The position numbers and the translations under genes are program-made. A DNA stretch of 64,000 bases from NCBI RefSeq assembly GCF_011043775.1, contig NZ_JAAKXY010000006.1, positions 124,001 through 188,000 on the forward strand. Reading direction: 5' to 3'. Under the pieces are notes generated by a model. The model saw nothing but the letters and a program-made list of their open reading frames with translations. It searched no databases and had not been told where the DNA came from. Source of the stretch: Natronolimnobius sp. AArcel1 (GTDB lineage Archaea; Halobacteriota; Halobacteria; Halobacteriales; Natrialbaceae). Within the stretch, counting starts at the first letter, position 1; every line of letters starts with the position of its first letter. Positions 47,774-53,193 of this stretch are shown piece by piece.

Positions 47774-47938
47774 ACAGAGCCTGTTTTCGGTCCTCGAGTG
47801 GCGCTTGGTTCGTGGGCGTTATGGTGTCACAACAGCCATTGGCGCGGTTTTAGCATCTCAAACCGGACCCTTACCTCCAATTAATAATATCGTCAGGTTC
47901 ATTACTAACTACCCGTAACTGGCAGGTGGTGACTACTA

Positions 47939-48919
47939 GTGACTGATTCACGACGCTCGTCTCGTCGGTCATTGCTCGCGACATCCGGCTCTCTTGCAGC
48001 GCTTGCTGTTGCCGGTTGTCTCGGCGATGATGACGAGGCAGACGACAGCGGGAACGGCAATGGGGACGGAAGCGACGACCACGACGACGATCACGATCAT
48101 GACGATGATCACGACCACGATGATGACCATGATCACGATCACGACGATCATGACCATGACCTTCCCGTTGCTGAGTTCGAGGTTCTCGACCGCGACCACG
48201 ACGAGGAGGTAGTCGTCTACGTCCACGGCGACCACTGGCACGACGACCCCCTCGAGGTCCCTACTGACGATAATCTCTCACTCGGCGCGTTCGTCGAAGA
48301 CGAGGATGGCGACGAGATCGAACTCGGCGATGACCTCGAACTTGAGGTCGATATCGTCAGCGGCGACGACGTAATTGACGTCGACTTCCACGGCGATCAC
48401 GTCCACATCCATGGCGAGGAAGAGGGCTTCGCGGATATTACGTTCCAGCTCGTCGAAGACGGTGAGGTTGGCTACGAAACGCCGGAACTCGAGGTCGACG
48501 TTGGTGACCACGACCACGATGACCACGACCACGAGCACGGCGAGGTCGACGAACTGAAAATCCTTGATCGGTCCGAGGACCCACACGAAGAGGTTGCAGA
48601 GTATCACGACGGCCACTGGCACGGCGAACTCCCGCACATCCACACTGACGATAACGTCTCACTGGGCGGCGAGTTCTACGACGACCACGGCGACGAGATT
48701 CCGATTGGCAGCTCCGAGGAGTACGAACTCGGCGTTCGTGTCGCTGATGATGCCGACGACGATATCGTCGAAATCGACGAAGACGACGACTTCCACGGCG
48801 ACCACGTCCACATCCACGGCGTCGAAGAGGGTGAGACTGAGGTCGTCTTCATGCAGTGGCACGACGACCACGCCGATTGGGAAAGCGAGCCAATCGCAAT
48901 CGAGGTTGACGACCACTAA
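47939..48919 (+). CDS. His/Asp-rich Tat lipoprotein with two copies of an HWH/HGD domain (putative zinc chaperone)
   Basis: A 326-residue protein with GTG start and Shine-Dalgarno-like GGTGGTGA about 8 nt before it. A twin-arginine signal (RRSSRRSLLATSG) leads to a lipobox Cys27. Residues 46-73 are nearly all His and Asp, a metal-binding tract. Two copies of a roughly 105-residue domain follow: copy A 90-188 (HGDHWHDD at 96-103, FHGDHVHIHG at 150-159) and copy B 217-324 (HDGHWHGE at 223-230, FHGDHVHIHG at 285-294), with another His/Asp run at 189-200 between them. The same domain occurs inside the adjacent ZnuA. It probably collects zinc for the binding protein. I know no named family for this domain. 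Confidence 0.85.
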   Translation: MTDSRRSSRRSLLATSGSLAALAVAGCLGDDDEADDSGNGNGDGSDDHDDDHDHDDDHDHDDDHDHDHDDHDHDLPVAEFEVLDRDHDEEVVVYVHGDHWHDDPLEVPTDDNLSLGAFVEDEDGDEIELGDDLELEVDIVSGDDVIDVDFHGDHVHIHGEEEGFADITFQLVEDGEVGYETPELEVDVGDHDHDDHDHEHGEVDELKILDRSEDPHEEVAEYHDGHWHGELPHIHTDDNVSLGGEFYDDHGDEIPIGSSEEYELGVRVADDADDDIVEIDEDDDFHGDHVHIHGVEEGETEVVFMQWHDDHADWESEPIAIEVDDH

Positions 48920-49166
48920 GATGATTTGCTGTCCCGATTTGCCGGTGTGGCCGCAGGACGGTTCGCGGTTGCATCGTCACTAACGGACAGCAGATCGTAT
49001 TAGGCCCCTGCTGACGAGCGGATTCGTCGTGGCATCCGGCGAATCCGCTCTCCACTGCCTGCGATCGCGGGCGTTCTGCTCGCGACTCGCTCCTTCCTGC
49101 GGTGTTACTAGCGATCCCCGCTATAGCTGGCACCGATTATTAACTAACTTGCTACGGATAACAACC

Positions 49167-49174
49167 CTTTTACC
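49167..49174 (+). promoter_or_regulatory. znuA TATA element
   Basis: CTTTTACC at 49167-49174 lies about 22-29 nt before the ATG, and an AT-rich ATTATTAACTAAC segment at about 49133-49147 lies just upstream. A similar ATTACTAACTA occurs at 47901-47911 upstream of the His-rich gene, so a shared regulator is possible. Confidence 0.4.
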
Positions 49175-49195
49175 CAAGAGGCCGTACCCTCGTAC

Positions 49196-50614
49196 ATGAA
49201 CCGAACACGCCGTTCAGTACTGCGCTCGAGTGCGAGCGTCGGTGCGGGTGCCGTTGCACTTGGTGGGCTTGCGGGGTGTTTGAGCGAGCCCGACACTGAA
49301 AGCAATCCTGACGGCGGCTACGCAGCATTTTTTGCGCTGTGGGATTGGGCTGAACAGGTTTCTGGTGACCAGATGGACTTTGAGAATCCTGTAGACACAG
49401 GCGAGATGGGGCACGGCTGGGATCCACAGAGTGACCTCATCGCGGATATCGCCGGAACAGAGGTGTTTGTCTATCTCGACACGCCCGAGTTCGCCTGGGC
49501 ACAGGACTTAGCTGGTGACCTCGAGAACGATTACGATCATATCACGCTCATCGACGCGATGGAGGGTCTCGGCTCGGAGTTGCTCCCTGCGGCTGGCGAT
49601 GACCACGACCACGATCACAACGGCGACGGTGACCACGAAGAAGCGGACGAGTACGACGACGATCCAACAGCGGTTTCGATCACGACGTTCGACCTTTTCG
49701 ATCGCCAGACGGGTTCCCAGGGTGCCTACTGGCACAATGACCACTGGCATCAGGGACTGCCTGACGTCCCAGTCGACAGCTACGCTGCCGTCGATGCCGT
49801 TGTCGAAGACGACGATGGGCGCGTCCTTCCACTCGGCGAGGACGAACCGTTTTCACTCGACGCTCGCATCGTCGACGGTGCAAGCGAAGATGTCGCCGAG
49901 ATCGAATCACACGGCGACTATATCGAGTTCCACGGCCTCGAGACGGGACGAACCCGCGTCATCTTCGAACTCGTTGCCGACGACGAGGTTGTCTGGGACA
50001 GCAGCGACGATACGCTCACACTCGAGGTTGTCGAGGAACTCGAGGATGATGCGGTACCGGAGTTTTACGATCCACACGTCTGGACGGATCCAGTACTCGC
50101 TCAGGAAATGATCGAGACAATTGCGGATGGACTTGCCGACCTCGACCCGGATAATGCAGAGGCGTATCACGACAACGCCGCAGACTACAACAACCGCCTC
50201 GAGGAGGTTCACGAGCAGTTCCAGACACTTTCTGAGGAAGCCGATCGCGATATTGCCGTCCTCGCGGGTCACGACTCCTTCCAGTATATTGAGGACCGAT
50301 ACGGCTTTGAGATTCACACGCCAGCACCGATCTCTCCCGATGCAGAGTTGACGCCAGGTGATCTTGGGGACACGATCGAACTCATCGACGAGTACGACAT
50401 CGAGACGATTCTGTACGACCCCTTCGATGCAAACGAGGGTGAAATGCCCCGCGAAGCCGAGCACTTACTCGAGAACAGTCAGGCAACGGAGGCCGTCCCA
50501 ATCAGTCCTGCCGAGGGGACGATGTCGGAGTGGAACGAAAACGACTGGGGATGGCTCGAGCAGATGGAAGAGCTAAACATACCTGCACTGCAGGATGCAC
50601 TCGGAGCGGAGTAG
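49196..50614 (+). CDS. znuA: Zinc ABC transporter substrate-binding protein (ZnuA-like) with inserted HWH domain
   Basis: A 472-residue cluster A-I binding protein. A Tat-like N-terminus (RTRRSVLRSSA) ends at lipobox C28. The zinc ligands are in place: H73 (MGHGWDP), H294 (DPHVWTDP), H359 (AGHDSFQYIEDRYG) and D408 (LYDPFDA). The protein is far longer than the usual 300 residues because residues 135-280 hold a His/Asp stretch (DDHDHDHNGDGDH) plus a domain (174-279, NDHWHQG and SHGDYIEFHG) equal to those in the preceding lipoprotein. In normal ZnuA this place is the flexible His-rich loop. It delivers zinc to the membrane permease encoded downstream. Confidence 0.92.
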   Translation: MNRTRRSVLRSSASVGAGAVALGGLAGCLSEPDTESNPDGGYAAFFALWDWAEQVSGDQMDFENPVDTGEMGHGWDPQSDLIADIAGTEVFVYLDTPEFAWAQDLAGDLENDYDHITLIDAMEGLGSELLPAAGDDHDHDHNGDGDHEEADEYDDDPTAVSITTFDLFDRQTGSQGAYWHNDHWHQGLPDVPVDSYAAVDAVVEDDDGRVLPLGEDEPFSLDARIVDGASEDVAEIESHGDYIEFHGLETGRTRVIFELVADDEVVWDSSDDTLTLEVVEELEDDAVPEFYDPHVWTDPVLAQEMIETIADGLADLDPDNAEAYHDNAADYNNRLEEVHEQFQTLSEEADRDIAVLAGHDSFQYIEDRYGFEIHTPAPISPDAELTPGDLGDTIELIDEYDIETILYDPFDANEGEMPREAEHLLENSQATEAVPISPAEGTMSEWNENDWGWLEQMEELNIPALQDALGAE

Positions 50615-50662: not shown

Positions 50663-51403
50663 GTGAGTTCAGCCGTCGATATTCGGAACGTTTCGTTTGC
50701 CTACGGTGACCAGACTGCACTCGAGGATGTCACCCTGACTGTCGAGTCCGGAGATTTCCTCGGGTTGATCGGCCCAAACGGGTCGGGAAAGACCACTCTT
50801 CTTCATATTATGCTCGGGCTGCTCAGCCCGGATAGTGGGGCCGTTGAGTTGTTCGGGCAGGATGTCGATTCGTTCGAACAGGGTGAACGCATTGGCTACG
50901 TGTCGCAGAAAGCGACAGATCGTGGCGGAACGATGCCGGTAACTGTCCGCGAGTGTGTTCGCATGGGTCGATTCGCCCACGTCGGTCATGGCCGACTCAG
51001 TGACGAAGACCGAGACATTGCGGATGACGCCCTCGAGACGGTCGACATTATGGACCTTGCAGACCAGCAGATGAACCAGCTTTCGGGTGGCCAACGCCAG
51101 CGAGCCTACATCGCACGGGCGCTTGCCTCCGAAGCCGACCTGCTTGCACTGGACGAGCCGACAGTTGGCGTCGACGCGGAATCGCGCGATGCATTTTACC
51201 AGTTACTCGAGTCGTTGAATGAGTCCGGAATCACGATCATCCTGATCGAACACGATATTGGCGTCGTCACGGATCGGGCGGATCGAATCGCCTGCATCAA
51301 TACGCAACTGTATCACCACGGCGACACGGAGTCGTTCGTCGAAAGCGATGCGCTGAGTGAAGCCTACGGGGCGACAGGCACAGTCGTCCACCATCACCAC
51401 TGA
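50663..51403 (+). CDS. znuC: Zinc ABC transporter ATP-binding protein (ZnuC)
   Basis: A 246-residue ABC ATPase with GTG start. The Walker A is GPNGSGKTT, signature LSGGQRQRAYIARALA and Walker B LLALDEP with the following H-loop LIEHDIG. The C-terminus ends HHHH, adding possible metal binding. It powers zinc import with the permease. It follows znuA by 48 nt and its TGA overlaps the permease ATG (TGATG). Confidence 0.95.
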   Translation: MSSAVDIRNVSFAYGDQTALEDVTLTVESGDFLGLIGPNGSGKTTLLHIMLGLLSPDSGAVELFGQDVDSFEQGERIGYVSQKATDRGGTMPVTVRECVRMGRFAHVGHGRLSDEDRDIADDALETVDIMDLADQQMNQLSGGQRQRAYIARALASEADLLALDEPTVGVDAESRDAFYQLLESLNESGITIILIEHDIGVVTDRADRIACINTQLYHHGDTESFVESDALSEAYGATGTVVHHHH

Positions 51404-52488
51404 TGAGCGGAGACGAACCCACCTCGATGGCACACGACGCCTCGGATACACAGGCGATGGAAGCCAATCCAACCAGCCTTCGCTACCGCCTCGAGTCCGT
51501 TGCTCTCGGACTCGTTGGGTTACTCGCGGTGGCGATGCTCGTCTTTATTGCACTCGATTGGCTGCGCCATCTCAACGCGGACGCAGCGGTGCTGTTCGAT
51601 CAGTTCCTGGTCGCTGGCATGTGGTTTGACTACTACGCTGGGACGAACGTCTTCCAGCATGCCTTTATGTGGCGGATGATCGCAACAGGCGTCCTCGTGG
51701 GAATCGTTGCGCCGCTTATCGGAACCTATCTCGTTCATCGGCAGATGGCGCTGATCGGCGAGACACTCGCACATACTGCCTTTGCCGGCGTTGCCATCGG
51801 ATTTCTCGTCATCGCGGTGACTGGCTGGGAGGGGTCGCTCTTGCTCGTTGCACTCATCGTCAGCATACTCGGTGCACTTGGCGTCCAGTGGCTAACTGAA
51901 CATACCAACACGTTCGGCGACGTGCCCATTGCGATTATGCTCACCGGGAGTTTCGCCGTCGGGACGCTACTGATTAGCTGGGGCCGCGGAACGATGTCTG
52001 TCGCCATTGATATCGAAGGGTGGCTCTTTGGCAGTCTCTCGGTGATTCCCTCTGGCGGCGCACGCATGATGGCCGTCCTCACTGTCTCCGTCGTCGCCGT
52101 GATTGCACTCACCTACAAGCAACTACTGTTTATCACGTTTGACGAGCAGGCCGCTCGAGTCGCCCAACTCAACGTCACGGCGTACAACACCCTGTTGGTC
52201 GTGATGACTGCCGTCGTCGTCGTTGGCGCAATGCAGATTCTCGGCGTCATCCTCGTTGCTGGCATGCTTGTCATCCCCGTCGCTGCCGCCTCACAGATCG
52301 CTCACAGCTTCCGTGAGACGCTCTTTCTCTCCGTTTTGTTCGGCCAGTTTGCCGTACTTGGCGGGTTCGCGTTCGCGCTAAGTCAAAGCCTCCCTCCAGG
52401 TGGGTCGATTATCGTCGTCGCGATTGGCTGTTATCTCGCGACTATTGCCCTCTCCGATCGGTCCGGTGTTGCTCTGTCGATGCACTAA
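51403..52488 (+). CDS. znuB: Zinc ABC transporter permease (ZnuB)
   Basis: A 361-residue ABC-3 permease with about eight to nine membrane segments. The N-terminal cytosolic extension (MSGDEPTSMAHDASDTQAME) is followed by FMWRMIATGVLVGIVAPLIGTYLVHRQMALIGETLAHTAFAGVAIGF, the family core. GAMQILGVILVAGMLVIPVAAASQIA is the second conserved region. It forms the zinc channel with ZnuC. Translation is coupled to znuC by the TGATG overlap. Confidence 0.95.
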   Translation: MSGDEPTSMAHDASDTQAMEANPTSLRYRLESVALGLVGLLAVAMLVFIALDWLRHLNADAAVLFDQFLVAGMWFDYYAGTNVFQHAFMWRMIATGVLVGIVAPLIGTYLVHRQMALIGETLAHTAFAGVAIGFLVIAVTGWEGSLLLVALIVSILGALGVQWLTEHTNTFGDVPIAIMLTGSFAVGTLLISWGRGTMSVAIDIEGWLFGSLSVIPSGGARMMAVLTVSVVAVIALTYKQLLFITFDEQAARVAQLNVTAYNTLLVVMTAVVVVGAMQILGVILVAGMLVIPVAAASQIAHSFRETLFLSVLFGQFAVLGGFAFALSQSLPPGGSIIVVAIGCYLATIALSDRSGVALSMH

Positions 52489-52542
52489 TTCGGTGTGCCT
52501 CACTGTCACAGGGCCTTTGTGTTCCTGGTCCATACTACATCT

Positions 52543-53193
52543 ATGGCCATTGAAGCGTCGTTTACTGCCGAAGAAGGGGAGTTTCCACTCGCCGAAGTGT
52601 TTTCGAAGTTCCCCGCTGCCCGGATCGAACTCGATCGGGTCGTCCCGACCAACGACGCGTTGATTCCGTACTTCTGGCTGCACGACGTCGATGCGGCATC
52701 GATCGATCTCGAGGGCCTCGAGCATCCCGGTATCAATGACCTCCAGATTATCGACGACCTCGAGACGGAGGTGTTTGTCCGAATCGACTGGGATTTCGAG
52801 TACGAGAGCGTTCTGACTGCGATTCTCGAGACCAACGTGACGTTGCTATCTGCAGTGGGAAAACAGGATAAGTGGACGTTTGAGATTCGCGGGATGGAAC
52901 AGGAGGCTGTCTCGAATTTTCAGTCCTACTGCCTAGATTTTGACATTCCGATTGAACTCGTCCAGTTACACGCGCTGTCACCGATGCACTCAGAGAACGA
53001 ATACGATTTGACAGATACACAACGGGAAACGCTCGTGCTTGCGTATACGCTCGGCTATTACGACTCGCCACGAACGGCGACCCAGGATGACCTCGCTGAT
53101 GAACTCGAGATTACGCGACAAGCGGTCGCCTCACGTCTCCAACGAGGCACTCGACGTCTGATCGCGAGCACGCTCGTTGGTGCCACGGAATGA
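52543..53193 (+). CDS. Bacterio-opsin-activator-like HTH regulator
   Basis: A 216-residue protein from ATG 52543 (MAIEASFTAEEGEFPLAEVF); an in-frame ATG at 52495 would give an odd 16-residue extension. The C-terminal HTH_10-type helix-turn-helix is YDLTDTQRETLVLAYTLGYY DSPRTATQDDLADELEITRQAVASRLQRG, read in two parts. The N-terminal part is a ligand-sensing domain of the Bat type. It is 54 nt after znuB and may control the zinc operon, though such genes are numerous in haloarchaea and adjacency is the only link. Confidence 0.85.
   Translation: MAIEASFTAEEGEFPLAEVFSKFPAARIELDRVVPTNDALIPYFWLHDVDAASIDLEGLEHPGINDLQIIDDLETEVFVRIDWDFEYESVLTAILETNVTLLSAVGKQDKWTFEIRGMEQEAVSNFQSYCLDFDIPIELVQLHALSPMHSENEYDLTDTQRETLVLAYTLGYYDSPRTATQDDLADELEITRQAVASRLQRGTRRLIASTLVGATE

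Follow-up and report, generated by a model that had tools for sequence, protein, structure and literature searches.

In this study, we examined a znu locus of Natronolimnobius sp. AArcel1 within a stretch of 64,000 nucleotides (the window) and relate a domain that recurs there to zinc acquisition. The genes for a Tat lipoprotein, ZnuA, ZnuC and ZnuB lie in this order, all on the + strand, and a domain of about 112 residues, hereafter the HWH domain, is found twice in the lipoprotein and once in ZnuA by profile boundaries. The features of the locus are as follows.

47880..47909, + strand: dyad operator-like motif ATTAATAAT-N12-ATTACTAAC, ending 29 nt 5' of the lipoprotein start codon
47939..48919, + strand: Tat lipoprotein, 326 aa, with two HWH domains
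47939..48019, + strand: Tat signal and lipobox (MTDSRRSSRRSLLATSGSLAALAVAGC) of the lipoprotein, from sequence
48074..48160, + strand: His/Asp tract of the lipoprotein, 29 residues (residues 46-74), from sequence
48167..48502, + strand: lipoprotein HWH domain copy 1 (residues 77-188), by profile
48224..48241, + strand: triad HGDHWH of lipoprotein copy 1
48545..48907, + strand: lipoprotein HWH domain copy 2 (residues 203-323), by profile; AlphaFold2 pLDDT 94.9
48605..48622, + strand: triad HDGHWH of lipoprotein copy 2
49136..49165, + strand: dyad operator-like motif ATTATTAAC-N12-GATAACAAC, ending 30 nt 5' of the znuA start codon
49196..50614, + strand: ZnuA, zinc solute-binding lipoprotein with insert, 472 aa
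49316..49585, + strand: ZnuA N-terminal lobe (residues 41-130)
49679..50017, + strand: HWH domain inside ZnuA (residues 162-274), by profile
49733..49750, + strand: triad HNDHWH of the ZnuA copy
50060..50611, + strand: ZnuA C-terminal lobe (residues 289-472)
50663..51403, + strand: ZnuC, ATP-binding subunit
51403..52488, + strand: ZnuB, permease (ABC-3, PF00950)

An HTH_10 regulator encoded 3' of znuB (52495-53193) was considered as a zinc regulator and rejected; it adjoins ZnuB only in this genus. ZrgA was likewise set aside as an identity for the lipoprotein, its matches being weak, confined to the His/Asp tract and below the cut-off.

The original prediction placed three copies of one domain in the lipoprotein and ZnuA. 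In line with this, the three copies align with one another at scores about 20 SD higher than shuffled copies do, and their similarity is therefore not a matter of composition or chance. The copies are real, but the boundaries first given (residues 90-188 and 217-324 of the lipoprotein, 174-279 of ZnuA) are slightly narrower than those of the profile. Three is also the correct count for the window only, as the whole genome holds seven: the four others comprise one each in a second (contig C3) and a third ZnuA (C6:228 kb), and a pair in an 868-aa protein adjoining the second. The Tat motif, lipobox, two copies and His/Asp tract ascribed to the lipoprotein were all recovered, the tract having 29 residues where 28 had been counted.

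As had been suspected, the domain is without a name in Pfam or NCBIfam, and sequence searches against Pfam, NCBIfam, PHROGs and the PDB gave no credible match. No relative was found in plasmids (searched in protein mode with the lipoprotein domains), phages or viral contigs, so that mobile spread is unsupported. The AlphaFold2 model, built on 57 aligned copies, is nearly all beta (pLDDT 94.9, pTM 0.88), and its best matches among solved structures are mostly Ig-like (SbsC, Z 9.4, 2.5 Å over 88 residues; LigA, Z 8.9; lambda gpV, Z 8.4), those with Z of 8.4-9.4 spanning 87-89 residues. This confident model predicts an Ig-like beta-sandwich, which many unrelated domains match and which, being so common, says nothing about function. 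The predicted fold resembles that of Big_2 and other bacterial Ig-like domains, whereas the His triad is specific to the HWH family; the Pfam Ig and Big_2 families gave no sequence match, Big_2 not even at E up to 10.

Trp23 (profile numbering) does not vary in 128 copies, and among polar residues His19, His22 and His/Asp24 are conserved best. All 58 ZnuA copies keep H19, H22 and W23, with position 24 occupied by H in 52 and by D in 6. The core triad is thus HxxHW(H/D): the DHWH or DGHWH core that was first described stands, but the defining motif adds a His three residues before HW. The pattern HxxHx[HD] is present in 55/58 ZnuA copies by plain matching, in 58/58 by alignment and in 39/43 lipoprotein copies. 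The second motif first proposed for every copy, (F/S)HGD(H/Y)..(H/F)HG, is variable in ZnuA copies, with its first His in only 21 of 58. In the form HGDHVH it supplies a second HxxHxH in 26/43 copies from znu-adjacent lipoproteins and in 5/58 ZnuA copies. Several accessory copies, namely second copies of large proteins and small paralogues, have lost the triad, and some must therefore do another job.

ZnuA itself is a cluster A-I metal-binding protein by Pfam profile (PF01297, E 2.3e-41, 142.5 bits, cut-off 29). Outside the insert, its model has the family's two-lobe fold and matches the whole zinc-binding protein Lmb (3hjt; Z 29.3, rmsd 1.9, 258 residues), and GHGW, DPHVW, GHDSF and YDPF are all present. 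The predicted metal residues H35, H256, H321 and D370, which we take to be the inter-lobe His3/Asp ligands from known structures of the family, are invariant in 24 ZnuAs. The insert lies between the N lobe and DPHVW, at the position of the His loop of Bacillus subtilis YcdH, which bears out the placement originally proposed. The His/Asp tract said to precede it is indeed present in the window's ZnuA, but is not conserved among close relatives.

An HWH domain lies between the lobes of 60 haloarchaeal ZnuAs. At this place, insert-bearing proteins have a stretch of some 150 residues that is in most cases poor in His, whereas insert-free zinc-type ZnuAs have a His-rich loop of 28-76 residues; the fourth ZnuA-family protein of the genome (C1:335192) is without insert and has a loop of 8 residues. 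On a tree of the lobes only, insert presence needs three changes, compared with 27 when labels are shuffled, and all HWH ZnuAs fall in one 72-sequence clade (99/92), together with ten His-loop ZnuAs and two carrying another inserted domain. In this clade, the HWH domain takes the position of the His-rich capture loop. A His-loop ZnuA, L189, is nested in the tree next to the group that contains the window's protein (100/90); it has probably lost the HWH domain, and a His loop of 76 residues now takes that place. This nesting and exchange are the strongest argument for a common function of domain and loop. Our literature search found no description of such an alternation.

The other inserted domain is also unnamed. 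It has about 115 residues, the motif HAHAC.HG and no Pfam match, and in two genomes (L205:1561-3030 in G136; L206 in G246) it, and not HWH, occupies the His-loop place of a ZnuA with long His tracts, with the dyad of the HWH locus also 5' of the gene. This HAHAC domain recurs in large surface proteins (L009:6275-13015; L056, L070, L075, L096, L111), which mostly adjoin znuA, often next to HWH copies.

The HWH domain was found in 51 of 292 Halobacteria, all 51 of which have a ZnuA-family protein, as do 241 of the 292 overall. Within these 51, it is located inside a ZnuA in 43 genomes and in an accessory protein adjoining znuA in 31; none had an accessory beside an insert-free ZnuA, the neighbouring ZnuA being always insert-bearing. 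ZnuB lies within 2.5 kb of 50/58 insert-bearing ZnuAs. Scanning named genomes with the ZnuA copies of the domain yielded 24 loci, each with an insert-bearing ZnuA, mainly in Natrialbaceae (Natrialba, Natronorubrum, Natronococcus, Natrarchaeobius and others). Lipoprotein and insert were both present in three insert-bearing control genomes, and the domain was absent from 13 of 13 relatives, most of which were shown to have a His-loop or HAHAC ZnuA of the clade. The predicted co-occurrence with znuABC is therefore found in other genomes too. Most znu-adjacent lipoprotein genes share the strand of znuA and lie no more than about 330 nt 5' of it; their products have Tat signals, lipoboxes, one to three HWH copies and, in 28/33, His/Asp tracts at either end. 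In its strict form, the idea that these copies present metal to ZnuA through homotypic contact does not extend to all genomes: 12 of the 43 with an insert-bearing ZnuA have no adjoining accessory, and there the insert can apparently work alone.

A regulatory link between lipoprotein and znuA is suggested by a 30-bp dyad with the consensus RTTAWTAAY-N12-RWTAMYAAC. Allowing up to three mismatches, it occurs in the window, on both strands, only before these two start codons, with 0.16 matches expected in shuffled sequence. Allowing up to one, the 4.56-Mb genome has three sites, the third lying 32 nt 5' of a CobW/COG0523 GTPase gene. Across 81 genomes of the family we found 53 sites, against one for the reversed pattern. 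Reading the gene downstream of 33 sites in this genome and its relatives gave znuA in 21 cases (with or without insert), the lipoprotein in four and CobW in seven. The dyad was first spotted in the znuA and lipoprotein promoters, so its occurrence there is not independent evidence, unlike its occurrence before CobW genes and insert-free znuA. COG0523 GTPases are typical zinc-starvation genes. The dyad is thus, as far as its sequence context indicates, a probable zinc-starvation operator common to lipoprotein and znuA. The znu operon of Haloferax begins 4 nt 5' of znuA1 (PMC8155600); by analogy, the dyad would overlap the core promoter, like a repressor site. The CobW/COG0523 GTPase (L184:1501-2993; contig C2:264655), the only other gene of the genome with the dyad, has a His-rich tail and is a probable member of an archaeal zinc-starvation regulon. 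At the sole site read that is not 5' of a zinc gene (L196:1501-1530), the nearest acidic ORF resembles an Orc1/Cdc6 protein.

Accessory zinc proteins that serve ZnuA are already known, among them Pht with AdcAII, AztD with AztC, ZinT and AdcA. Closest in layout is the actinobacterial anchored-repeat Znu system (TIGR03769/TIGR03772; Corynebacterium diphtheriae ZnuAECB-FG). There, a zinc-regulated ABC transporter adjoins zinc-binding surface proteins in which a zinc-linked motif occurs once or twice; two relatives elsewhere under Zur control have two and three copies, and a related His motif is also found in C. diphtheriae ZnuA (PMC12445094). The HWH locus similarly has one copy in the binding protein and at least one in the adjoining surface protein. 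In the actinobacterial case, by contrast, some 150 residues separate HxD from HxH, and the proteins, from another domain of life, have a cell-wall or membrane anchor where the HWH lipoprotein has a lipid anchor. In the NCBIfam scan, TIGR03769, a 41-residue model that is weak at such distance, gave no match at E up to 10 to the lipoprotein or to individual HWH copies, and none over its cut-off in the genome. By gene order, the Nonomuraea ZnuA locus is an ordinary znu operon.

The Pht proteins of Streptococcus share with HWH proteins an HxxHxH triad, repeated units and a gene adjoining that of a ZnuA-type binding protein. The zinc ligands of PhtD, H83, H86 and H88, have the same spacing as the HWH triad, and PhtD has been shown to hand zinc to AdcAII (PMC3842936). 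Unlike HWH domains, Pht units are small three-stranded sheets (PF04270), none of them inserted in AdcAII as far as known; PF04270 matched neither lipoprotein nor ZnuA at E up to 10, and the full PROSITE pattern occurs in none of the domain proteins. AztD-AztC, ZinT-ZnuA and AdcA, a ZnuA-ZinT fusion, are further cases in which an extracytoplasmic accessory, separate or fused, serves the binding protein. The accessory folds of AztD, ZinT and AdcA are unrelated to the HWH fold. Further, the AdcA fusion is C-terminal, whereas the HWH domain sits at the His-loop position, and the ZinT domain gave no match to the lipoprotein or ZnuA at E up to 10. The haloarchaeal HWH case would work like known accessories, but with a domain that the tests made did not assign to any of their families.

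Synteny with znuABC, the His-loop place, joint absence of lipoprotein and insert, and the dyad in common with CobW/COG0523 genes make a role of the HWH domain in zinc acquisition, as originally proposed, very likely. Conservation and spacing suggest that the triad HxxHW(H/D) probably binds zinc. At the cell surface, the His/Asp tract and HWH domains of the lipoprotein would collect zinc, which would pass by ligand exchange to the HWH domain on ZnuA and then to the inter-lobe His3/Asp site, before ZnuBC imports it. We are only slightly inclined to accept the transfer from lipoprotein to ZnuA, and contact between like domains is a possible route that is not needed where the accessory is absent. 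Taken as a whole, the explanation in which the triad binds zinc, the domain replaces the capture loop and the lipoprotein collects zinc and hands it over seems to us reasonably likely.

Other readings of the same locus were weighed. The Ig-like domain might serve for docking or as a spacer, binding the S layer, the permease or another copy of itself while the His/Asp tracts alone capture metal; the closest folds include Ig domains of S-layer proteins and adhesins, and an invariant Trp and some His-less copies would fit a structural role. However, such a role does not sit well with a triad whose His, His and H/D positions persist throughout the 58 ZnuA copies, nor with the alternation of domain and His-rich loop at one place within one clade, and we regard it as unlikely. 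Long His/Asp tracts in 28/33 znu-adjacent lipoproteins would also suit a store that holds zinc at the surface and limits or smooths its uptake with no direct hand-over to ZnuA. This has been considered for ZnuF and ZnuG of C. diphtheriae, which are dispensable for low-zinc growth and reduce growth when expressed in a transporter-less strain (PMC12445094). The joint absence of lipoprotein and insert and their common operator-like site fit import better than a sink, which makes a pure store rather unlikely.

A further reading makes the domain a general transition-metal ligand at a locus importing another metal such as Mn, Co, Ni or Fe, since relatives of the domain adjoin Iron_transport genes and are part of a CbiM/NikL locus. 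Against this stand the zinc-type ZnuA with its His3/Asp ligands, its His-loop relatives, and the dyad shared with COG0523 genes; we consider it quite improbable. The preferred reading, zinc capture by the domain in place of the loop and hand-over from the lipoprotein, bears on how extracellular accessories load zinc-binding proteins and on the job of the ZnuA His-rich loop. Haloarchaea offer a setting in which both loop function and the hand-over of zinc can be tested, since one clade carries either a folded domain or the loop at a single site and a partner protein has further copies of the domain. The analysis also yields a family of domains that deserves a name, a probable zinc operator of archaea with its regulon, and an annotation for many "hypothetical" lipoproteins adjoining metal importers.

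The zinc role originally proposed is well supported for znu loci, but the domain is not confined to zinc. In two methanogen genomes (MCR present), a two-copy HWH protein (L158:6597-10478; L160) is encoded between cobalamin genes, of which CbiD was scanned in one of the two, and CbiM/NikL, a cobalt/nickel ECF importer. In four Halobacteria (L109, L112, L113, L116), a solo HWH lipoprotein lies 3' of a DUF7350/Iron_transport (PF10634) protein, with a 4-bp overlap in three and a DUF7405 gene before the lipoprotein in the two scanned for it; these loci are probable iron-uptake operons with uncharacterised parts. Although the loci are few, they indicate that the domain goes with transition-metal import generally. 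Tentatively, and with some doubt, HWH may be a general metal hand-over module of Euryarchaeota that serves three unrelated importers (ZnuABC for zinc, CbiM/NikL ECF for cobalt/nickel and Iron_transport/DUF7350 for iron), and that in zinc uptake has been plugged into ZnuA so that surface copies would pass metal by like-with-like contacts. Also in methanogens (L161:6444-7619; L162:6033-7208), an HWH domain lies at the C-terminal end of a secreted protein that has no Pfam match, contains a 230-residue region with an HIGCC motif, and is encoded near oxidoreductase genes resembling formate dehydrogenase.
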